Shown: piece by piece, positions 27,498 through 39,315 of the stretch
Layout of the letters: each line of letters starts with the position of its first letter
Position numbering within the stretch: the first letter of the stretch is position 1
Assembly: GCA_024639455.1 (NCBI GenBank)
Contig: JAHEIH010000001.1
Span: forward strand, 124,001 to 188,000
Source of the DNA: Cellvibrionales bacterium
GTDB taxonomy: Bacteria; Pseudomonadota; Gammaproteobacteria; Pseudomonadales; JAHEIH01
Length of the DNA: 64,000 bases
Reading direction: 5' to 3'
Position numbers and translations under genes: made by a program
Notes under the pieces: model-generated
Told to the model about the DNA's origin: nothing
Databases searched by the model: none
What the model saw: the letters and a program-made list of their open reading frames with translations, nothing else

Positions 27498-29330
27498 GTG
27501 AAACACGGCTTAAATCAAGCATTCAGTCTGACCCGATTCTGGTTGAAATTATCTAGCCCAGTGCGGGTGTGTGTGATTGCCAGCTGTATGATGGTGATAT
27601 TCGTGTTGTTGGCGTTTTTTCTGGTTGCGCAACAAAACGTTGCCCGTCAAGCGAGTGTCACTAATGTACAATCGGAGGCGGCGGCGGCAGAGCTTGATAG
27701 CTACTTTAGCCGCCTCAGTTACAGCATCCACATCGCTGCTAAGGACCAAGACCTAGCGCGTATGCCGGTGGATATTATGTATTTTGGTTATGCCAAGCAG
27801 CGATTGAGTGAGCTGGTAGGTAACGACGAGGCTATCGTTGGCGCTTTTGTCGTCGACGGTAGTCAATACGTGTTGGAGGGAAGTCCCATTGAAACGTTGG
27901 GTATCCGCTCCAAGCGTGTCAATAAAATAACCTCAGAAATGTTTCAATATGAATCTCTTCGGCCTACTAAACCCACCTTGTATTTAATACCCCGAGATGA
28001 CGTCGAATTTTTATTGCCTCTGACATCCAATGCCTCCAGTTGGTTGTTGTTTGGGGCGCCTCTAGTGTTAGAGCGTAATGATTTTTTATCGCCATCCGAA
28101 CATACAGGGGTGCTTTGGGTGGCCATTGATATTGTCAGCCTATTGGAGACGCAATTGGCGGGAGCCGATCTTCTGCTTGGGGGCTATAAGGTACACAGTA
28201 TGAATGTCATTGATCCCAAAATCACGCCCGATGTAGTTGTTTCTCCTAATACTCCTATCCTTTATGACGGCAAAGTCGCGCGGTTACATCTTTATTTACA
28301 GAGTCAGGGGGGACTGGCGTGGTGGGCGTTTATGCCCTGGATGTTGCTGTTGTTGCTCGCGCTTAGTATCGTCGGGTTGTACCTTTTTTCCAATCGCGAG
28401 CAGGCGCGCTTGATACACGCGACAACCAATATTGCAGATAACACGTCCCCTATACTTAGCGCAGATCTAAGCGCAATAAAGGCACTTGTCGAAAACAATT
28501 CCATGCAAAGTAGCCTAGTGTCTCAGCAACTCCTATCAGACAAGGCTTCGTCGATTGAAAGCGAGACGCGTGAAAACAGTTTTCGTAGCGTGGCTAAAGT
28601 GCTGCAGCGTAGATTAGATGATCCGTTATTAAAACTCAGTCTGGCCAGTTCAGTTTTGCAGCAGTACAGCAGCGATCGAGCCCTATTGCCCGTGATGGAA
28701 GATCTTCAGCAAGCATTGGAGGATATTCAGAGCAGTAGCCAGCAGTTACAAGTGGCGCTGAGTGGGGAAGTGATGAAGAGCCTGCATAATCCACGCGAAG
28801 TCATGCTAGAAAAACTATTAGCTAATTTTTATAGCGCATGCCGCACACAGGGTAAAGATGTGATCTTTATTGTTGACCCAGTGTTGCATAGCCGAGTCAT
28901 GGTGTCAGCTGAAGCCTTGGAAGAAATATTAATGGCGACAGTGCGTTCAAAAGATATCGCCACCTTTGGCGACAGATTTGTGCTTCAATTGGTGGCGCTA
29001 GAGAGTAATGAGCGGCAACAAGTTGTACGGTTTGTTTTTTTCAATGATCTATACCAGGCAGACGCTTCAAATATTACTCTGCCAGAGTATATTCCAAACA
29101 ATACCAATAGATGGTCTAAAATTAGTTCAATCATGAGTGATTTAGATCTGCGTTTAGCCGCGATCTATCTTCAAGTGCTTAAAGGCAGCTTAGGCAGGAT
29201 TGAGCATGAAACGATAGGCGCACTAGTATATTTCGATATACCTCTGCATGTGCTAGATGCCGACATGGTGATGAGTAACCTCAGCATGAATCTTTCAACG
29301 ACTTTGAGGAACATTAAGCATGACCAATAA
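27498..29330 (+). CDS. membrane sensor with degenerate histidine-kinase core
   Basis: A 610-residue protein starting with GTG (GGAG 5 bases upstream). TM1 is about 22-44, a periplasmic domain spans roughly 45-263, TM2 is about 265-287. The cytoplasmic part has a DHp-like helix VAKVLQRRLDDPLLKLSL (355-372), where the phospho-acceptor His of HELRTPL is Arg or Gln. The ATPase-like region (EALEEILMATVRSKDIATFGD) lacks the N-box Asn and shows no DxGxG or GxGLGL boxes. It is therefore probably a pseudokinase. It is first of four overlapping genes with an Hpt protein, a solute-binding protein and a hybrid receiver protein, suggesting it relays periplasmic ligand binding. Confidence 0.82.
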   Translation: MKHGLNQAFSLTRFWLKLSSPVRVCVIASCMMVIFVLLAFFLVAQQNVARQASVTNVQSEAAAAELDSYFSRLSYSIHIAAKDQDLARMPVDIMYFGYAKQRLSELVGNDEAIVGAFVVDGSQYVLEGSPIETLGIRSKRVNKITSEMFQYESLRPTKPTLYLIPRDDVEFLLPLTSNASSWLLFGAPLVLERNDFLSPSEHTGVLWVAIDIVSLLETQLAGADLLLGGYKVHSMNVIDPKITPDVVVSPNTPILYDGKVARLHLYLQSQGGLAWWAFMPWMLLLLLALSIVGLYLFSNREQARLIHATTNIADNTSPILSADLSAIKALVENNSMQSSLVSQQLLSDKASSIESETRENSFRSVAKVLQRRLDDPLLKLSLASSVLQQYSSDRALLPVMEDLQQALEDIQSSSQQLQVALSGEVMKSLHNPREVMLEKLLANFYSACRTQGKDVIFIVDPVLHSRVMVSAEALEEILMATVRSKDIATFGDRFVLQLVALESNERQQVVRFVFFNDLYQADASNITLPEYIPNNTNRWSKISSIMSDLDLRLAAIYLQVLKGSLGRIEHETIGALVYFDIPLHVLDADMVMSNLSMNLSTTLRNIKHDQ

Positions 29331-29685
29331 GCATCTTGATTTGGCCAAGGTCATGGATTGCTATGGGGGTAGTCCACAGGTACTCATTAAAACCCTGCGC
29401 CGAATTCATAGTACATTGCCGACGGAGTGGCAGCTATTTTTAACGTGTTGTGACACAAGCGATTTCAATCAGGCCTCGGTTGTTTCACACCGAATGGCGG
29501 GGACGCTTTCGATGGTTGGCGCCACTGAATTTGCCGATCTCATGCGAAGAATTTCACACGTTACTAAAGAAAACCGTGCGGTACCTACTGAATTGTTAGC
29601 TAGAGCAATAACGTATTACGACGCAGTGCTGGTGGAAATAGATAGCTTTGTTGCCCGTTTTCCCCTCGAGGCCAGTCCAAAATGA
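29320..29685 (+). CDS. stand-alone Hpt phosphotransfer protein
   Basis: A 121-residue helical protein matching the Hpt fold. The motif VVSHRMAGTLSMVGATEFADLMRRIS places the phospho-His at H57, with the usual nine-residue spacing to the VGA turn and the following helix. It overlaps the sensor gene by 11 bases and the solute-binding-protein gene by 4 bases (ATGA), so all are co-translated. It is the only complete phospho-His site in this cluster and would pass phosphate to or from the receiver of the hybrid protein at 30844 (inference). No membrane segment or signal peptide. Confidence 0.85.
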   Translation: MTNKHLDLAKVMDCYGGSPQVLIKTLRRIHSTLPTEWQLFLTCCDTSDFNQASVVSHRMAGTLSMVGATEFADLMRRISHVTKENRAVPTELLARAITYYDAVLVEIDSFVARFPLEASPK

Positions 29686-30854
29686 GGTGGTCGCTTGGAG
29701 TCATTGTTTGGCTGTCGGCGGTGTTGACTCCGTTGGCCGCAGAAGAGCGTCTTACCCTTGCATATAGTGTTACCAACTTAGTTTTTTCCAGTTTACTTAA
29801 TGAGCTTGTTGAGCAATATGCCTTGCCTATCGACCTTGTTTACGTTGATAACGACGAAATCAAGGTCACACTGCTCAAAGCCCAGCAAAATGAAGCCTCG
29901 CCCGACATACTGATCATGCCCAATGATCATTTAGGATTAAATCTATCTTTCAGAGAATTGCCCGAAAGTTGGCTGCAGCAATCGATTGAACCATACTACC
30001 TGCCATACGATTTGCGTACAGCTCGATTAGGTGTGCCCGTCATAGGCGGTAACCAGTTAGTCCTTTATTTCAATAAGCGTTTCGTGGAAAGCCCAATTAA
30101 CGATTTCAATGAACTCGCTGATGTGGTTGGAAGTTTTCCTGAGGGTGTTTCCTCCATACTGTGGAGTGTGATGGAACCCTTTTGGTTTCAGCCGTTTTAT
30201 TCCATCAATGAAGCAAGTTTTTTTATCGCAGGTCGACCAGATTTAGACCGCCCTGAGATGTGGAGAGGGCTGTCTAATTATCGCCGTTTGATTGAAATGT
30301 CCAGCATAGACCTAACATGCGACTATAGTTGTGCCTTTAACGGTTTTGCGCAAGGTAAGGCGGCATATACCATTAACGGTGAGTGGGCGATGCAAGAATT
30401 TAGCGCTCTGCTGGGTGATGATCTTGGCGTAGTTCGTCTGCCTTCCTTTGAAGGGCATCTGCTGCATCCTTATTATGGTAGCCGTGTATTTGCTATGCCA
30501 GAAAAGCGCCCGCTGTCGGATAAACAAAAAAAGATGGTGCAATCGCTACTTGAAGGTATGCTGTCTGAAGAGTTTCAAATGGCACTGTGGCGCAGAGCCC
30601 AATTGATGCCTGTTCACAACGGTGTGGCAAGTGCGCTTGATGACCCGGTTTATAGCTCGCTTGCAGATCAGGTAAAGCAAGGCAACTATATGCCGCAAAC
30701 CCCTGCTATGACGGTTGTATGGGGAAGTTTAAATATCGGATTGCAGCGCTTTTTATTGGGCGTTCTGGATGAAAAGGAAGCCGCGGACTTTATGCAAATA
30801 ATGACGAATAAAACGCTGAATGAGCAACAAAGAGCTAAACATAATGCTGGATAA
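29682..30854 (+). CDS. periplasmic solute-binding protein, family 1 type
   Basis: A 390-residue exported protein: signal peptide to about residue 19 (cleavage LAA-EE), then a two-lobe binding-protein pattern (LTLAYSVTNLVFSSLLNELVEQY, SPDILIMPNDHLG, FNGFAQGKAAYTINGEWAMQEF, MPVHNG), which is close to MalE-type sugar binders. No ABC permease or ATPase gene lies nearby. Instead it sits inside a sensor/phosphorelay operon, overlapping both neighbours. A role as ligand receptor for the membrane sensor or hybrid protein, as LuxP does for LuxQ or TorT for TorS, is the natural reading but is inference. The ligand is unknown. Confidence 0.85.
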   Translation: MRWSLGVIVWLSAVLTPLAAEERLTLAYSVTNLVFSSLLNELVEQYALPIDLVYVDNDEIKVTLLKAQQNEASPDILIMPNDHLGLNLSFRELPESWLQQSIEPYYLPYDLRTARLGVPVIGGNQLVLYFNKRFVESPINDFNELADVVGSFPEGVSSILWSVMEPFWFQPFYSINEASFFIAGRPDLDRPEMWRGLSNYRRLIEMSSIDLTCDYSCAFNGFAQGKAAYTINGEWAMQEFSALLGDDLGVVRLPSFEGHLLHPYYGSRVFAMPEKRPLSDKQKKMVQSLLEGMLSEEFQMALWRRAQLMPVHNGVASALDDPVYSSLADQVKQGNYMPQTPAMTVVWGSLNIGLQRFLLGVLDEKEAADFMQIMTNKTLNEQQRAKHNAG

Positions 30855-33009
30855 ATTCAACAAGTTATTATCACGGTCAAATATTTTAGCCTTTATCAGC
30901 AGCAGCTATATGCTGATGGTTACGCTGCTTTTTGTCTTTGCTGTCGGCGACGTTCTTTTCGATGATCCAATAGCCAAAGGCATTGTTGTAGCCTACCTAG
31001 TTTTGACACTACTGAGCTTCGCCGTTTGGCAGCGTGTTACCAATCGCTATTTTTTATCTGTTCACAGTGCTATGGCGTTAGGTTTATGTGCTTACACAGC
31101 CTATTTAGAAGAACCACCTGTGTATATTTTGGCGTACATTTTTCCTTTTGCCATTTTGTGGAATGCCAAGTTGCGCTATGACATAGGTTTGGGGCTGTTT
31201 ATCCTGGCTGCTCTTATTCAGGTCGCGCTCGTTGCCGAGGTCGATAGCATTAATTACTGGCAATTTATCTCCATTTCATTTGTGTCAATGATCGGTCTGT
31301 TGGGGATTACCTTTGACCGTCATCTTCGCTTGGCTTGGATAAAACACAAAAATGCCACAGACAATGCGCAATACGAAAAAGAAAAAGCCGAATCCTCGTT
31401 GGCTATAGCTGAGCGTGGATTTGACAGCATGATTGAACGCTTTGTCGATCAATTTAAGGAGCCTTTGACGGTAATCATGGGTATGAATACCGTTTTACAA
31501 AGCCATGAAACCACGCGGCGCGGCATGGATGTTTTGACCCGGCAGTACGTGACCGGCCATTATTTGTTGGACGTGCTTGCTCGGATGTCCGCCAACGCCA
31601 TGCAGAAAAAGGCGCTGATTGACATACAACATTCCTCCTTCATGATCAGCGATGTTGTCACCGTCCTAGAAAATCAGATCTCGGCTTTGTTGATGCCAAC
31701 CCGCAAAGTCGAGTTGGTGTTCGATGACAAAATATTTAATCACTTATTAGGTGATAAATTTAGGTTGCAGCAATTGCTACAAGGGCTTTTGGAAATTGCC
31801 GCTGATCGCCTCATTGATGGAGCAATATCTGTCTCTATTTCTGGCCATCCCAATGAGTTGGAAGATCAAGTAAAAATTAACTTTGCCATCAGTGCTATTG
31901 GGGATTTGTTGGAAGACGATACCGTCCCGCCAGACGTTGAGAATCTGCAAGATCCATTCTATGAAAAAATATTTTTTGCTTTGGGTTTTAACCTACAGTT
32001 TTTTAGTGCCTTGCTTGAGGATATGGGTTCCACGTTACGCGTTGAGGAGGATCAGGGCTCGCTTACTTTCCGTTTTGAATTAATTTTTCAAACTGAGCAT
32101 AATCATGAGTCGATTGGCGATTTCTTTGATAAATCTCAACGAGACACTGAACCCGATTGGTACAACGCCTTGCAGGGTTATCGTGTGTTAGTTGTCGACG
32201 ATAGTGACGATACCTTATTTGTTTTGAGAGAGTTATTAACCCTCGCAGGTGCATCGGTTGATACTGAAATAGACGCTAATCAGGCCATTCTGAGAGTGCT
32301 AGATGGCGCTAAGCCCTTCGACATGATTATCATGGACCTGCAAATGCCCTCCTTGTCGGGAGAGGCAACAACGCAAGCCATTAGACAGCAGTACAGTAAG
32401 GGACAGCTACCTATTATGGGTTTATCAGCGAGTAATCGTCCTGAAGATATAAAATCCAGTTTGGCGGCGGGTATGAATGATTTCATGGTGAAGCCCTTCA
32501 ATATCAATCATTTTATTGATTTTGCAGTTTCACATATGCCGCGTCGTATGACTGAGATTCCTCTTCCTGATTTACTTGAGAATTCGTCCAGCAGTCTCGA
32601 CGAAGACAGTGATGTTAACGTGTCTCAATATCTGAGCCTGCCAGATGGCTATGATGTGAATGCAGCTATTGCCAATTTAGGCGGTGATACACAGCTTTAC
32701 CTTTCGATGCTAGATGCCACCTTGAGAGAATGGGGGGTAAACATGAATCAATTGCAGAGCGCGTTAAAGCGAAATGATATCTATTATGCGCAGCATGTTA
32801 TTTCGCGCTTTGCAAATAATGCGGCGATGTTGGGCGCCATAGAGATGGATAGTTATTTGCGACAACTAAACTTTTCGCTTGGCTTGCGAGCAATGGACAA
32901 GCAGAGCGAAGATGCAGGGTTGCAAGAATTGGGTCGCGAGTTAGAGGAGCGAATTTGGCGAGTCAGTTCGGTACTGAAATCGGTGGCTGACTCGCTAACA
33001 AATCGCTAG
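30844..33009 (+). CDS. membrane hybrid protein: degenerate kinase, intact receiver, Hpt-like tail
   Basis: A 721-residue protein. Residues 12-160 form about five or six membrane segments with little periplasmic part. A DHp-like helix at 192-222 reads VDQFKEPLTVIMGMN, with Asp where the His of HELRTPL should be. The ATPase-like part (LLQGLLEIAADRLIDGAISV, 311-330) has Ile instead of the N-box Asn. A complete receiver follows at 445-560: D452/D453, D498, S528, K550. The last 120 residues resemble Hpt, but the phospho-His position is Ser654 (nearest His is 651). The start at 30844 has AAAGAG upstream; an ATG at 30820 is possible. It overlaps the solute-binding-protein gene by 11 bases. Confidence 0.85.
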   Translation: MLDKFNKLLSRSNILAFISSSYMLMVTLLFVFAVGDVLFDDPIAKGIVVAYLVLTLLSFAVWQRVTNRYFLSVHSAMALGLCAYTAYLEEPPVYILAYIFPFAILWNAKLRYDIGLGLFILAALIQVALVAEVDSINYWQFISISFVSMIGLLGITFDRHLRLAWIKHKNATDNAQYEKEKAESSLAIAERGFDSMIERFVDQFKEPLTVIMGMNTVLQSHETTRRGMDVLTRQYVTGHYLLDVLARMSANAMQKKALIDIQHSSFMISDVVTVLENQISALLMPTRKVELVFDDKIFNHLLGDKFRLQQLLQGLLEIAADRLIDGAISVSISGHPNELEDQVKINFAISAIGDLLEDDTVPPDVENLQDPFYEKIFFALGFNLQFFSALLEDMGSTLRVEEDQGSLTFRFELIFQTEHNHESIGDFFDKSQRDTEPDWYNALQGYRVLVVDDSDDTLFVLRELLTLAGASVDTEIDANQAILRVLDGAKPFDMIIMDLQMPSLSGEATTQAIRQQYSKGQLPIMGLSASNRPEDIKSSLAAGMNDFMVKPFNINHFIDFAVSHMPRRMTEIPLPDLLENSSSSLDEDSDVNVSQYLSLPDGYDVNAAIANLGGDTQLYLSMLDATLREWGVNMNQLQSALKRNDIYYAQHVISRFANNAAMLGAIEMDSYLRQLNFSLGLRAMDKQSEDAGLQELGRELEERIWRVSSVLKSVADSLTNR

Positions 33010-33023
33010 CGAGTCAGCGTGGT

Positions 33024-35549
33024 TTAGGCCTTTTCTTCCGTCAGTAGAATCATGGTACCTGCTGGCTTGGTGCCTTTAGCCGGCGACGGAATAATTTCTA
33101 CCGTAAATACATTGCCGTCATCGGTTTTTAAAACCTCTTTAAAGGGCTCGTTCTGCAAGTGCGAATCTCTCGTTGTTTTCAGCACATCAAACTCACCTAA
33201 ACGATGCGAAAGGTGTCCAATAGGTCTTCCAATGTCGTGATCGATGATGTTGAAAACTTTCGACGCGCCTGCCGAGAAACGGCGGAGATTCATGTCGTTA
33301 TCTAAGAAGACATAAGCTGAGCGAGAGACCGATAAGAAGCTTTCAATGTCTTCGCTTAGCTGACTCATTTGAGAAATCTTGCCCTGGTACTCGGCGTTGA
33401 CAGTAAACAGCTCTTCATTGACCGATTGCAGTTCTTCGTTTGTTGACTGCAGTTCTTCATTACTAGCGAGAAGTTCTTCGTTGGTTGCTTGCAGTTCCTC
33501 GTTAGACGTCTCGAGTTCCTCAATCGTGGCCTGCAAGTTTTCGCGGCTAAATTGCAGTTCTTGTTCAAGGTCATTTAAACGATGCATTAACTCAGTGTCG
33601 GCATCGTAGGCGTCTTTCAGCGCGGTTTCAGAGATGTTTTCTGTATCTCGAATAATGATTACCGCCAAGCGTGGCGAACTGCGCGTAAACCGCATGGGGC
33701 GAATCGTCACGTTAACGAGTTTTATTTCGTCGGCGTTCTTGATGCGGACTCGGCTGAAAGTGACCTCTGAGTTGGTGCGATGCAAGCGCGCCAGACCTGT
33801 TGTAATTGGAATCTGCAAGTCCTTGATGATCAATTGATTCAAGTTACTCGACATGCGGCCGCTCAAGGGCAGCATGTAAGGGCGAGAGTTACCGATAATA
33901 CGAACGATCTCGTTTTCATCATTCACCAACATCGAGAATGGAATGAACTTGTCTGACAAGACGTCTAGATAGCTTTCAAGTACTTTGACCTCCTCGCTAG
34001 CTTTGCGCTCGTAGGGCGTACCATCGCTGACGAGTCCAGGTGTCCAGGAGTTATCTCGCTGACTATCGGCGGTGGCGCTCATGGTGAAATTGGCGGAGCG
34101 TGCTCGTCGCGTACCTAACGTGCGGAACATTTTGTCCTTAGCGTCTAGCGTTTCAAACAAAGTGTCGGCATCGCCAAGCGACTCAGAGTTGCCCAACATC
34201 AATAAGCCACCGGGATTCAATGAGAAATTGAAAGACTGGAGTACTCGGCGCTGAACTTCGGGTTGCAAATAGATGAAGAGGTTACGGCAACTGATGAAGT
34301 CGATTTTGGTGAATGGCGGGTCGGACAGAATATTATGGCGAGCAAATACCACCATCTCGCGGATTTTACGCGAAATAATAAAGTGATCACCGTTGCGTAT
34401 GAAATACTTGCCGAGCATATTGCTCGACAAGTCAGCCACGATGGATTCTGGATAAATACCCGTGCTGGCTCGCGCTAGTGCCTGTTGATCGATATCGGTA
34501 GCAAACACCTTTAGTTCAAGATCGAGTTTGAGCTCTTCAACGATTTCTAAGAAAATCATACACAGCGTGTAAGCTTCCTCACCTGTCGAACAAGCGGCTA
34601 CCCAGAAACGCACTTCGCCGGTCGTGACTTTACTCAGATATTTCGCCAAGTGAGTATGTTCGAGGTTTTCAAACACACTTTTGTCGCGGTAGAAGTTAGT
34701 TACACCGATCAGCAGTTCTTTAAATAGCGCATGGGGCTCGTCGCCATCGGAGCGAACAAAGTCGGAGTATTGCTGCAGACTCTTGTGCTGTGTAATCGAC
34801 ATACGGCGTTGGATGCGACGGCCGATGGTGGACGATTTGTAGGAGGAAAAGTCCACTTTGAAACGCATATTTAAAACGTTAAAAATTTTACCTAGAGATG
34901 TTTTGCTGTCAGTAAAATCTTCATCAATTTCCTGAGGCGCTGTTGTCAGCGGGTGGCGAATGTATCGGATCAGGTAAGAGGGCATTTCATTGATAGTAAG
35001 AATGTAGTCTGCCAGGCCGTTGCTAATAATGCTGTTCGGCATACCATCGAACTTAGCTTCTTTTTCCGATTGGGCGATGACCAGACCACCCACTTCTTTA
35101 ATGGCTCGACAGCCACGAGTGCCGTCGCTGCCTGTGCCCGACAAAATAATGCCCACTGACGATGGCCCCATGTAGGTGGCCAGTGAGTCTAGAAATACGT
35201 CGATAGGCAACTGGGGAGCACGGGTTGAACGGTCTTGCGGTTCGGGAACCAGTTGACCCTGAATTAATCGCATGTTGCTACCTGGAGTAATCAGATAGAT
35301 AGTGTTGGGTTCCGGGCGGACGCGATCCGACACTTCTTTGACCGGCATCTTGGTCACACGACGCAACAAGTCACTCATCATGCTTTTTGTATCAGGCGAC
35401 AAATGTTGGATGACAACAAAGGTGAGGTTGGAGTCGGCGGGCATCTGTTTAAAAAATTCAGAGATGGCTTCCAGGCCACCCGCGGAAGCGCCAATACCAA
35501 TGATATGTTGTTGTTTAATTTCGGTAATTTCTTCGAGTTCGCCGACCAT
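33024..35549 (-). CDS. CheB-CheR-PAS fusion protein
   Basis: An 841-residue fusion. Residues 15-200 are a CheB methylesterase domain with S22 (GASAGG), H49 (VIQHLSP) and the Asp in GTGSDGT. A CheR methyltransferase follows ([52 protein letters not shown], about 215-480). Next come a PAS-like part, a coiled coil of repeated NEELQ units (about 655-710) and a C-terminal PAS ([18 protein letters not shown]). Other members often end in a kinase; this one ends after PAS. Its stop is 15 bases from the convergent hybrid gene. It probably modifies receptors or senses a signal in the neighbouring relay (inference). Confidence 0.92.
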
Positions 35550-35679
35550 GCATCTGATTCCGTTGCTTTTTTCTTAAAAGATTTGAGTATTATGCTATCT
35601 CAAATGATTTATTAATTCATCATTCTTCAATAATAAGCTAAAGTGCAGTCAAATGCTGAATTTTTTAGCAAGGTTTTGG

Positions 35680-36621
35680 ATGGATGTTTTGATTCTGCAG
35701 CAAGATAATGTTGTGTCAACGATTTTGATAGGTATTTTGTCGCGTGCAGGTCATAGACCGCTGTTGGTAGAAGACCCTTTTGCCTGCTATGAAGCCATTC
35801 AGCAAAAGGATGGCGCTGCCATCGTGCTGCTTGATAAGCGCGACGATAATCTGGATGTTCGAAGTCTTTGCCAGTTGGTGCGAAACACTAAAATTGGTTA
35901 CCAGCCTTATATTATTTCACTTTTCGAGATGCTGAGTTTTAGCGACATTGAAGGCATCTTGCGCGAGGGTGTAGACGATGTTTTGCCGTTGCCACTCAAC
36001 AATGGTCTGTTACTCGAAAAAATCAAAGTTGCAGAAAGGTGGTTGCAAGTTCAATTGGATCAGCGTGAGTTATTGAACAATGTACAATCCAACGCTATGT
36101 ATAACGAAGATCTTGGCTTGTTTAATGCCAAGGCCGGAAAAAACTTGATTACCAAAGAGCTATCGCGTTTACGATTGTTGGCCAACAGCCACTCGGGGAT
36201 TGAAGTATATCCAGAGTTTTTCGCCATTAAACTCACAAATATGACACAGTTGATGGATGATTTTGGGCAGTCCTGCCTGCAAGACGTGCTCGAGCAATTA
36301 TCGGTGCGCATACAACGTCATTTACGCGGATCTGATATCTCATTTCTAATGGAAAATGACATTGTTGCTTGCTTTATTACGAGTTATCAGCAGCGTAACC
36401 AACTTGGCCAGGAGTTACACCAAGCGTGCACGGCAGAGCCCTATGTGATTGGGAATATCCATTTTACGATGGTATGTAGTGTGGCTGTGATTGGTTTGGA
36501 TAATCCTCCTATGCAGTTGGTGACTGAAATTTTTAGCAAAGCGCGCGAGCTGCATACACATTTGTCGACTAAAGATGCCATGCCAGTTTTCCGCTTTAAT
36601 TTTAAAAATGATAAAAATTAG
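35680..36621 (+). CDS. degenerate receiver plus degenerate GGDEF-like protein
   Basis: A 313-residue protein. The N-terminal receiver-like domain (MDVLILQQDNVVSTILIGIL) keeps the phospho-acceptor Asp (IVLLDKRDDN) but has QQD for the acidic pair and Leu for the conserved Lys (VLPLPL). The C-terminal half looks like a GGDEF fold (FFAIKLTNMTQLMDDFGQSC, RGSDISFLMENDIVACF), where the GGDEF signature is replaced by MENDI, so diguanylate cyclase activity is unlikely. The start at 35680 is chosen because AAGG precedes it and the receiver begins there; an ATG at 35653 is possible. It is divergent from the CheB-CheR fusion, 130 bases away. Confidence 0.75.
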   Translation: MDVLILQQDNVVSTILIGILSRAGHRPLLVEDPFACYEAIQQKDGAAIVLLDKRDDNLDVRSLCQLVRNTKIGYQPYIISLFEMLSFSDIEGILREGVDDVLPLPLNNGLLLEKIKVAERWLQVQLDQRELLNNVQSNAMYNEDLGLFNAKAGKNLITKELSRLRLLANSHSGIEVYPEFFAIKLTNMTQLMDDFGQSCLQDVLEQLSVRIQRHLRGSDISFLMENDIVACFITSYQQRNQLGQELHQACTAEPYVIGNIHFTMVCSVAVIGLDNPPMQLVTEIFSKARELHTHLSTKDAMPVFRFNFKNDKN

Positions 36622-36753
36622 CGGTACGCTTCCAGATTAATAGGCCTGTTGGCAGAAGATGACCGAATTAGTACTATTCAAAATGTTGCATCCAGACGTT
36701 TGAAAAGTATATTGTTCTGATGTTCCATAATTAAAAATACAGGGGATCTGTGA

Positions 36754-39315
36754 ATGTCTTTATTGAAGAGCAAAGCAAAATTAACTCTCGCCGTGGCCGC
36801 TGCCGTAAGTGCAATGTCGGCTGGCGTATCTGCGCAACAGCTCGAAGAGGTTGTAGTTACCGCGACCAAACGTGCCGAGTCGTTGCAGGATGTACCTATT
36901 TCTATGTTGGCTGTCGACGGTGAAAGCATACGTGAAGCAGCGATTACTAAAATGGAAGACCTCACCAACAGTCTTCCCGCTGTGACAGTGGTACCTAACC
37001 CCATTGGTAACTTCATCTTTATCCGTGGTATTGGTTCTTCTACTAACCAAGGTATTGAACAGTCAGTATCGATGTTCCACGACGGTATTTACATGGGTCG
37101 CCACCAGTTGTCTCGTGCGCCCTTTATGGACTTGGCGCGTGTGGAAGTTTTGCGTGGCCCTCAGTCGATTTTATTCGGTAAGAACACCATCGGTGGCGCC
37201 ATGAGCGTCATTTCAGCTAAGCCTACCGAGGAATTTGAAGGTTTGGTGAGCGTGTTAGGTGGCGATTATGGCGAGCAAGAGTACAACGTTGTGTTGTCTG
37301 GCCCTATATCTGACACCTTCCGCGCGCGTTTAGCGGCTCGCGGGTACCAAACTGACGGTTATATTTTCAACGAATTGGGCCGTAACGACGACGGTACTTT
37401 AGGTCGTGATGAAACCCAACGCGATGACCAGTCTATTCGTTTGACCTTGGAGTGGGATGTCTCTGACGACACGACATTGACGTTGAAGCATGAAGACAGT
37501 TCATTTGAAGATCTGGGTCGTACTCAGCAAATGGCTATTATTAATCCATTAACGCCAACGGCTGTGGGTCTTACTGGTTTAGCTAAGGGCATTATTACGG
37601 TGGCTGGCGGTAATCCTGACGAAGTGGTTGATGACCGTCGTGCGGTAACCAACGATGGTGGTGTACTTCTCCAGCGTGTTGCTCCTGTGCTTGCAACTGA
37701 TCGAGATGGTAGCCTATTACCCGGCTTCCCTGATTTGGATGAGCTAAGCAATAACAACATGGCCATCACCACATTTACTGTGGATACCAGTATCGGTGAC
37801 AACACCCTTACGGCGATTTATGGCCATGCTGAATACGATTACCTCGATATCTGTGACTGTGACTTTGCTGCCATCCCTTTGGTTCAGGTAGAAGCGGCTG
37901 AGGAATATCAGCAAGATAGCTTGGAATTGCGTTTAACCTCTCCTGGTGGTGAAAAGGTTGACTGGTTAGTAGGTGCTTATTTCCACGACAGCGATCTTTA
38001 CTATACCTCTGGCGAAAGCTTTGGTGCAGCCATTGCCACTCCGCCAACGTTGATTGGGGCAACAGGTGGACAGTTGCTGCCCAACATCACGCGTAACTAC
38101 TTCCTTGATCAACAGCAAGAGCAAGCTTCAGTGTTTGGTTCAGCCACGTGGAACGTCGATGAAACTAATCGCGTGACATTGGGTTTACGCTACACACAAG
38201 AAGATAAAACGGCGGCTCGCAAACTCGACAAACGTTTCACTGATGGCTGGGATGCTACCCGTCTAAATGTGAACCCTCAGACGGGTGCACCAGCGGGAGA
38301 GTTGGTTTTTGGTAGCACGGCGGCGGAATACGACCGTGTTGCTCAGTACTTTGTGCCAGCCATTTTGGCGGGTGTTACTGCGGTTCCTGCCATTCCAATG
38401 GAAGCTTTCCTGAATGGCGGTTTATGGGAAGGTTTGTTGAATACCTACGAACATGATTTCACAGGTGCCAATGCATACAACCGCAGTGAAAGCTTCCTCG
38501 ATTGGTCGTTGAACTACGAACATGACTTGAGCGAAGACACCATGGTGTTCTTAACCGCCTCTACCGGGGTTAAAGGTGGTGGTTTCGACGCGCGTTACTT
38601 GAATGCACCTGGTGCGAACTTCGAGTACGAAGAGGAAAAAGCGAAAAACTTTGAGTTAGGTATTAAGTCGACCCTGCTCGACGGTGGTATGACATTGAAC
38701 GCTACCCTGTTCCGCACCGAAGTCGATGACCTTCAGGTCTCTATTTTCGACGGTAAGACCGCTTTCTTAGTGGACAACGCCGGTGCTATGGCAGCACAAG
38801 GTTTAGAGTTTGATATGAAGTGGGCAGCCACTGAGAACCTGACTATTACCGCGGCGGGTGCTTACTTAGATAACAAGTACACCAAGTTTGATAACTCACC
38901 TTGCTGGGTATCGCAAACCGTTGATGGGTCTTGTAATGCGGCGCTAGGTCAAAGTGCGGCGGGTAAGGCAAACATTTTCTCTCCTAAGCAATCTGCTAAC
39001 TTGAGATTTGACCACGTGATGCCTATGGATAACTTGGAGTTGCGTTCAACACTGGATGCGTTCTTCTCAGGTGGCCATTTCACAGCAGCTGACTTAGACC
39101 CTGTTTACGCTTACCAGCAGTCTTATCAGCGTGTCAATGCGCGTATTGCCTTGACTGATCCTGAAGCAGGTTGGGAATTGGCGGTTATTGGTAAGAACTT
39201 GACTGACGAGAAGGTCAGTACCAACAACAACGACCAACCTCTGGTACCTGGCAACGGCTTTACGTCCTTGCAGCCACTCAAGTCAGTCGCTGTTCAGGCG
39301 ACCTACAAGTTTTAA
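36754..39315 (+). CDS. TonB-dependent outer membrane receptor
   Basis: An 853-residue receptor with signal peptide (ending near GVSAQQ), TonB box-like EEVVVTATKR, plug domain (DVPISMLAVDGESI, FIRGIGSSTNQGIEQSVSMFHDGIYMG, VEVLRGPQSILFGKNTIGGAMSVIS) and a 22-strand barrel ending in ATYKF. It imports a substrate using TonB energy; the class (DVPISM, FIRG, GRHQ) resembles receptors of marine and sphingomonad-like bacteria for varied organic ligands rather than classic siderophore receptors. No Fur or Zur box is seen upstream. It stands alone with a strong terminator. Confidence 0.93.
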   Translation: MSLLKSKAKLTLAVAAAVSAMSAGVSAQQLEEVVVTATKRAESLQDVPISMLAVDGESIREAAITKMEDLTNSLPAVTVVPNPIGNFIFIRGIGSSTNQGIEQSVSMFHDGIYMGRHQLSRAPFMDLARVEVLRGPQSILFGKNTIGGAMSVISAKPTEEFEGLVSVLGGDYGEQEYNVVLSGPISDTFRARLAARGYQTDGYIFNELGRNDDGTLGRDETQRDDQSIRLTLEWDVSDDTTLTLKHEDSSFEDLGRTQQMAIINPLTPTAVGLTGLAKGIITVAGGNPDEVVDDRRAVTNDGGVLLQRVAPVLATDRDGSLLPGFPDLDELSNNNMAITTFTVDTSIGDNTLTAIYGHAEYDYLDICDCDFAAIPLVQVEAAEEYQQDSLELRLTSPGGEKVDWLVGAYFHDSDLYYTSGESFGAAIATPPTLIGATGGQLLPNITRNYFLDQQQEQASVFGSATWNVDETNRVTLGLRYTQEDKTAARKLDKRFTDGWDATRLNVNPQTGAPAGELVFGSTAAEYDRVAQYFVPAILAGVTAVPAIPMEAFLNGGLWEGLLNTYEHDFTGANAYNRSESFLDWSLNYEHDLSEDTMVFLTASTGVKGGGFDARYLNAPGANFEYEEEKAKNFELGIKSTLLDGGMTLNATLFRTEVDDLQVSIFDGKTAFLVDNAGAMAAQGLEFDMKWAATENLTITAAGAYLDNKYTKFDNSPCWVSQTVDGSCNAALGQSAAGKANIFSPKQSANLRFDHVMPMDNLELRSTLDAFFSGGHFTAADLDPVYAYQQSYQRVNARIALTDPEAGWELAVIGKNLTDEKVSTNNNDQPLVPGNGFTSLQPLKSVAVQATYKF

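Follow-up and report, generated by a model that had tools for sequence, protein, structure and literature searches.

Several bacterial sensory systems couple a periplasmic binding protein to a membrane histidine kinase. In LuxP-LuxQ, TorT-TorS, AioX-AioS and CuaD-CuaS it is the binding protein that senses the ligand on behalf of the kinase, as the available parts of the AioX (PMC5908839) and CuaD (PMC10384115) papers describe for their own systems. All four are described as acting through working kinases, no dead kinase being reported in the sections of the literature accessible to us, and the solute-binding proteins (SBPs) used by such known systems belong, as far as the accessible portion of the AioX paper goes (PMC5908839), to families other than the one considered here. 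For the Hmr system, the excerpted text gives its authors' proposal of a hybrid kinase (HmrA) with two histidine phosphotransfer (Hpt) proteins and a membrane sensor (PMC11481889). The operon described here shares with the first four systems the proposed use of a binding protein as ligand sensor for a membrane kinase-like protein, and differs from them in its kinases. It lies in a stretch of 64,000 nucleotides (hereafter the window) from the genome of a Cellvibrionales bacterium (assembly GCA_024639455.1, contig JAHEIH010000001.1, positions 124,001 to 188,000) and encodes a membrane sensor (protein 1), a free-standing Hpt protein (protein 2), a MalE-like SBP (protein 3) and a membrane hybrid protein (protein 4), so that the Hpt gene stands between the sensor gene and the nearby gene of the SBP family (Table 1). 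To judge from sequence, the operon holds one usable His, one usable Asp and no visible kinase. With moderate confidence, we read it as the disabled and enlarged descendant of a pair made of an SBP and a hybrid kinase with a dCache sensor, now serving as a ligand-gated phosphotransfer node without a kinase of its own.

The SBP family of protein 3 is encoded beside dCache-type sensors, mostly in the family around Psychrosphaera. Pairs of an SBP and a dCache hybrid kinase in a Paraglaciecola metagenome-assembled genome (MAG; L078), Planctobacterium marinum (L079) and Psychrosphaera (L080) contain an SBP and a sensor homologous to those of the window, with gene ends overlapping or nearly so, as in the window operon. 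Unlike the window proteins, their kinases have kept the His, N, G1 and G2 boxes and a fused receiver, and neither a separate Hpt gene nor a second hybrid adjoins them. The survey was extended to 47 loci (these three and 44 fetched loci, L115-L158), 45 of which have an adjacent partner gene, the SBPs of L135 and L155 being without a sensor partner. Forty partners match HATPase_c, three are GGDEF proteins, one is cut short (L146) and one is a transport permease (L156). A further GGDEF partner is found in G990, a genome from another family of the window's order. The output attached to this SBP module varies and may be a hybrid kinase, another HisKA kinase, a LytS-type kinase or a GGDEF enzyme. 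Two of the loci tried were set aside: the shortened sensor of L146 was dropped as a case of natural loss, as a gene that by eye resembles a transposase begins three bases after its stop codon and the search for a kinase remnant came up empty, and L156 was dropped as a family member on account of its permease. L207, by eye an SBP-permease fusion with ABC genes, was left uncounted.

The original prediction had allowed that homologues keeping full kinase motifs in the same gene order would make this a normal hybrid system. The first half of that description fits the relatives: 38 of the 40 neighbour kinases, in tight SBP/sensor tandems, keep the phospho-His (37 with a HisKA-type H box, plus the LytS-type kinase of L158). 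The second half does not fit, the window proteins themselves lacking the motifs and no examined locus having the four-gene order. Since kinase motifs are intact in homologous SBP/sensor pairs, an ordinary hybrid system is the probable ancestor. The two exceptions (L148:4106-6025 and L149:7189-9147, from two species of one clade) read AREITAP, with Arg in place of His and an intact ATPase. In the SBP tree (50 rows) they form with L146 a 100/100 clade on the opposite side from the window protein, which falls in a set of 25 rows including 22 hybrid-kinase rows (support 96/91), its exact place being unsure because of its long branch. The loss of His in L148 and L149 looks independent of that in the window, and the family seems to have lost the phospho-His on two or more occasions.

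Protein 1 is homologous to the kinases that partner these SBPs, clearly in its sensor and weakly in its core, as far as sequence comparison goes. Its hydrophobic segments begin near residues 24, 205 and 278, the first and last flanking a periplasmic domain (residues ~46-274) with a predicted dCache fold (Z score 14.4, root-mean-square deviation 3.4, 204 residues aligned). Residues 58-589 match a profile of 22 partner hybrid kinases (hhalign probability 99.1, E 1.4e-18), much of this score coming from the sensor region; the cytoplasmic part alone aligns in the same register (probability 8.8, P 0.0038). An ATPase-like fold is predicted for residues 424-586 (Z 13.8, root-mean-square deviation 2.9, 135 residues aligned, ETR1), in an AlphaFold model with a mean per-residue confidence (pLDDT) of 56.7, whose alignment contained three kinase homologues and which does not constitute independent evidence. 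The kinase-like part is unrecognisable by sequence alone, and its assignment draws on the full-length profile alignment and this model of moderate confidence. The family alignment places Arg371, followed by Arg372, at the phospho-His position; the N and G1 boxes are gone and the G2 box reads SDLDLRL where the family has GTGLGL. The protein ends after the ATPase-like region, the receiver being carried by protein 4 and not fused to the sensor.

Protein 4 starts with four predicted hydrophobic segments, all within residues 1-160, and continues with a kinase-like core, a receiver and, at the C terminus, an Hpt-like domain. Residues 175-568 align with the partner-kinase profile (probability 99.7), and the ATPase and DHp regions outscore all reported shuffles (0/1534 and 0/1924, respectively) when 2000 shuffles of each region of proteins 1 and 4 are compared with family profiles built from 24 partner kinases. 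Here too the N and G1 boxes are gone, and the G2 box reads FALGFNL (GTGLGL in the family). A descent of this core from the SBP-partner kinases finds no support in BLAST, where kinases of the window's order (preselected as its own best matches) outscored the SBP-partner kinases, or in the kinase tree, where a terminal branch of ~10 changes per column gives no usable placement. When its own locus is set aside, the N-terminal membrane part (185 residues) matches nothing in the fetched loci at better than E 0.49. In NCBIfam, protein 4 weakly matches LuxQ and TorS. Its AlphaFold model is weak (mean pLDDT 49.6) except in parts such as the receiver, and fold matches of the two models outside the dCache, ATPase-like and receiver regions carry little meaning.

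No HisKA or HATPase domain is listed for proteins 1 and 4 (Pfam, E<=1), and a whole-genome search places none of its 45 HATPase_c matches inside the operon. Together with Arg371 and Asp202 standing for His and the missing ATP-binding boxes, this bears out the original prediction of two kinase-dead membrane proteins. The prediction of His57 of the Hpt protein and Asp498 of the hybrid as the apparently working phospho-sites is likewise borne out by residue position, both residues being intact. Protein 2 scores 23.3 bits with Pfam Hpt, just below the cut-off of 24.6, and is the only one of 11 Hpt matches genome-wide to lie in a frame shorter than 299 amino acids. The receiver of protein 4 retains Asp498, Ser528 and Lys550, whereas its Hpt-like domain, with Ser in place of His, appears to be a third dead phospho-site, additional to those noted originally. 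That the receiver and Hpt residues were kept while three other phospho-sites were lost speaks for a phosphotransfer function.

How such a node might work can be outlined. The liganded binding protein would dock on the dCache domain of protein 1, and protein 1, probably also protein 4, would relay the change through a dead DHp/ATPase core, these cores serving as dimer and docking scaffolds. The relayed change would then control phosphate exchange among His57, Asp498 and the receivers of active hybrid kinases outside the operon. Because the operon lacks a kinase, any phosphate that does flow must be supplied by another kinase or by a small donor. Elsewhere in the genome, a single alignment covers kinase core and receiver at 19 places, at three of which the match contains a stop. 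Only three of the 19 also match Hpt in the same frame, which leaves candidate customers for an outside Hpt. We advance only tentatively the specific picture of a phosphorelay station lacking a kinase, at which a ligand acts via the binding protein and two dead cores on the Hpt and receiver. It agrees with the ligand-gated pseudokinase phosphorelay originally predicted as far as the components go, namely two kinase-dead sensors, an SBP of a signalling-linked family, an intact Hpt His and an intact receiver Asp.

One of the genome's other hybrids (L180:6038-8707, G000:C25) looks active (PAS, HisKA, HATPase and receiver), has no Hpt and is adjoined by two small receiver-like genes. Its core groups with the SBP-partner kinases (with L153, support 100/96).

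The interpretation as a ligand-gated node builds on established points, namely the SBP family, the ancestry of sensor 1, the loss of catalytic residues and the intact His57 and Asp498. Several others weigh against it. Docking, phosphate supply in trans, gating and the final output are steps that we infer, docking of the SBP on the dCache domain being proposed by analogy, and the phosphate-donor kinase is represented by candidates only. In the shuffle comparison, the core of protein 1 is equalled by 221 of 1543 (ATPase) and 734 of 1990 (DHp) reported shuffles. The four-gene set was found in none of the examined loci or genomes searched, and no second copy was found; with no relative carrying it, co-conservation of the Hpt, receiver and SBP cannot be shown.

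The same anatomy would serve the main rival to the node, a RetS-like brake or phosphate sink, in which an active hybrid kinase would lose phosphate to the receiver and Hpt, or would be caught in mixed dimers with the dead cores, under the control of the ligand. RetS offers a precedent, as the available text of PMC5992135 describes it taking phosphate from GacS-P, acting as a phosphatase and inhibiting autophosphorylation, and structures of RetS and GacS are among the fold matches of the protein 1 model (Z 13.2 and 13.7), alongside many kinases. Such matches are, however, common to histidine kinases generally, and the direction is left undecided by the data; we consider a brake unlikely, if still worth weighing.

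The losses could also mean that the operon is a degenerating remnant, its catalytic residues having gone together with its function. Catalytic residues are indeed lost in three domains, the neighbouring gene at 35653-36621 also looks degenerate, and there is no close relative with which to measure selection, the congener G001 (75% complete) having no match to protein 1, protein 3 or the protein 4 core. Yet 1842 codons are open across the four frames, where 5% neutral substitution predicts ~10.6 stops, and the tight overlaps are kept, as are His57, Asp498, Ser528 and Lys550. For each of the four genes, the in-frame codon score moreover lies above those of the two shifted frames, although that of the Hpt gene is slightly negative. 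Decay thus strikes us as quite improbable.

Retention of the receiver, and separately of the Hpt His, suggests phosphotransfer and makes it very doubtful that no phosphate moves in the operon, with the dead kinases acting by protein contact and the receiver read by its conformation or charged by donors of the acetyl-phosphate type. DivL does work without kinase activity, but it retains the N, G1, F and G2 boxes, unlike proteins 1 and 4 (PMC4211667, in the part available). Least credible of all seems a kinase activity that survives by way of a non-canonical His or an unusual ATP site, the N, G1 and G2 boxes being missing besides the His and no HATPase appearing at Pfam E<=1, although His residues are present within the DHp-like region of protein 4 (read from the translation) and RcsD is reported, in the accessible text of PMC3762810, to autophosphorylate despite lacking the conserved His, which counsels caution in calling kinases dead from sequence.

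Table 1. Coordinates in the window of the four genes and of their domains and phospho-sites
Feature	Position	Strand	Basis	Description
Protein 1 gene	27498..29330	+	open reading frame, GTG start, 610 amino acids	membrane sensor, dCache-like periplasmic domain, kinase-dead core
Arg371 codon	28608..28610	+	family alignment; residue position	phospho-His position of protein 1
Protein 2 gene	29320..29685	+	121 amino acids; Pfam Hpt E 8e-5	free-standing Hpt
His57 codon	29488..29490	+	residue position	intact Hpt phospho-acceptor
Protein 3 gene	29682..30854	+	390 amino acids	MalE-like periplasmic binding protein, CxYxC motif
Protein 4 gene	30844..33009	+	721 amino acids	membrane hybrid: dead kinase core, intact receiver, dead C-terminal Hpt-like domain
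Asp202 codon	31447..31449	+	family alignment; residue position	phospho-His position of protein 4
ATPase-like region of protein 4	31633..32094 (limits approximate)	+	family profiles	no N/G1/G2 motifs
Receiver domain of protein 4	32185..32517	+	Pfam Response_reg E 2.4e-20; fold match Z 20.1	
Asp498 codon	32335..32337	+	residue position	intact receiver phospho-acceptor
Degenerate Hpt-like domain	32707..32949	+	Pfam E 0.07; residue position	Ser654 for His

The four overlapping genes are confirmed as real. All on the + strand, they overlap consecutively by 11, 4 and 11 bases, as had been predicted and as the reading-frame coordinates bear out if ATG 30844 starts the last gene; an alternative in-frame ATG at 30820 would lengthen the last overlap to 35 bases. 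Protein 3, with a signal peptide seen by eye, is MalE-like by both Pfam (SBP_bac_8, E 1.7e-8) and NCBIfam (MalE model, E 5.7e-15, at a score far under that model's curated cut-off), and the C-x-[YF]-x-C motif occurs in 44 of 51 SBP sequences, the seven without it including the non-member L156. No transporter domain was found in the seven proteins scanned (operon and immediate flanks; the search for transporter genes did not extend to the rest of the genome), so that within this region the permease and ATPase genes of an ABC importer do not stand beside the binding protein, in agreement with the prediction of a sugar-type binding protein with no ABC transporter. A maltodextrin-like ligand is a guess. 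GH97 glycosidase and MFS genes occur close to the pair at L079 and L115; in six other loci, the first upstream genes that were checked show no relation to each other or to sugars.

Two peptide patterns, applied to genome contigs, gave four relatives (Paraglaciecola, Planctobacterium, Psychrosphaera and a Silvanigrellales MAG). Of 295 genomes in the family to which the Psychrosphaera genome belongs, 47 have SBP matches at E<=1e-3, 38 of them above 230 bits. Among 390 genomes of the window's order, 56 have matches, those above 300 bits being limited to the window's own genome (two places) and G990; the remainder (<= ~115 bits) are probably general sugar-binding proteins. The window's genome also holds a paralogue of protein 3 with 31% identity, followed by a second binding protein of Peripla_BP_5 type and a PAS-GGDEF-EAL membrane protein (L070:9103-14518, G000:C13), an arrangement that suggests a cyclic di-GMP output for the same sensory family. 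In G990 the SBP gene precedes that of the GGDEF protein, and a response regulator of LuxR type is encoded upstream (L205:6043-9308); two loci (L140:5984-8382 and L144:6034-8435) have two tandem binding-protein genes ahead of a single sensor kinase. Viral contigs gave no relative of the SBP family or of protein 1, for which none was found either in the 94 other genomes of a first sample of the order. Over 369 genomes of the class, a sensor profile matched the window's own genome and, weakly, G343 (E 7.6e-4). The latter was dropped, as the SBP profile found nothing there and the short locus holds a periplasmic protein that is PhnD-like by eye; it may be a different binding-protein/sensor pair. 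A literature search, outside which most subscription journals fell, found no paper linking hybrid kinases in Alteromonas to SBPs of this family.

Convergent with the operon is a gene for a CheB-CheR-PAS fusion (33024-35549, - strand, 841 amino acids, no HATPase), a relative of which (G000:C25:133155-135427) appears broken over several frames, with in-frame stops. The gene at 35653-36621 (+ strand) encodes 322 amino acids and is weakly PleD-like (NCBIfam E 1.4e-6; Pfam GGDEF E 0.012); its receiver pocket and GGDEF motif are degenerate by eye, making it another disabled signalling protein near the operon. A patatin neighbour gene was not found in the congener G001. The GC content is 0.445-0.469 at 28-38 kb (window positions 28001-38000) vs 0.52-0.54 at 18-28 kb; as it is low at 6-12 kb too, acquisition of the operon region is only hinted at.

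If the operon is indeed a phosphotransfer node without its own kinase, the signal would act on the relay after the kinase step, and one ligand could redirect the phosphate of several other hybrid kinases. The operon is also a traceable case of a binding-protein-coupled kinase turned kinase-dead sensor, with SBP, Hpt and receiver retained, and its defined external input makes it possible to test what a histidine kinase still does without phosphorylating.

Among described proteins, RcsD is likewise a membrane kinase-like protein without phospho-His, partnered with an Hpt (available text of PMC3762810), and proteins 1 and 2 resemble a split RcsD. RcsD, which works with RcsC and RcsB, carries its Hpt in its own chain, whereas the window Hpt is a separate gene product and the Hpt-like domain within protein 4 carries Ser; RcsD is also paired with a working hybrid, RcsC, while the second hybrid here is itself dead and an SBP is added. 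DivL is a pseudo-histidine kinase with another residue at the His position (PMC4211667, as excerpted), to which the kinases of L148 and L149, with Arg and an intact ATPase, are closer than proteins 1 and 4, whose boxes are gone. RetS is a sensor that alters the phosphorylation of another hybrid kinase, GacS; the accessible part of that report (PMC5992135) mentions no separate Hpt or SBP, and the likeness to the window lies in the kinase fold. The operon thus combines the features of SBP-coupled kinases with those of kinase-dead sensors such as RcsD, DivL and RetS, in a manner of working that we infer.

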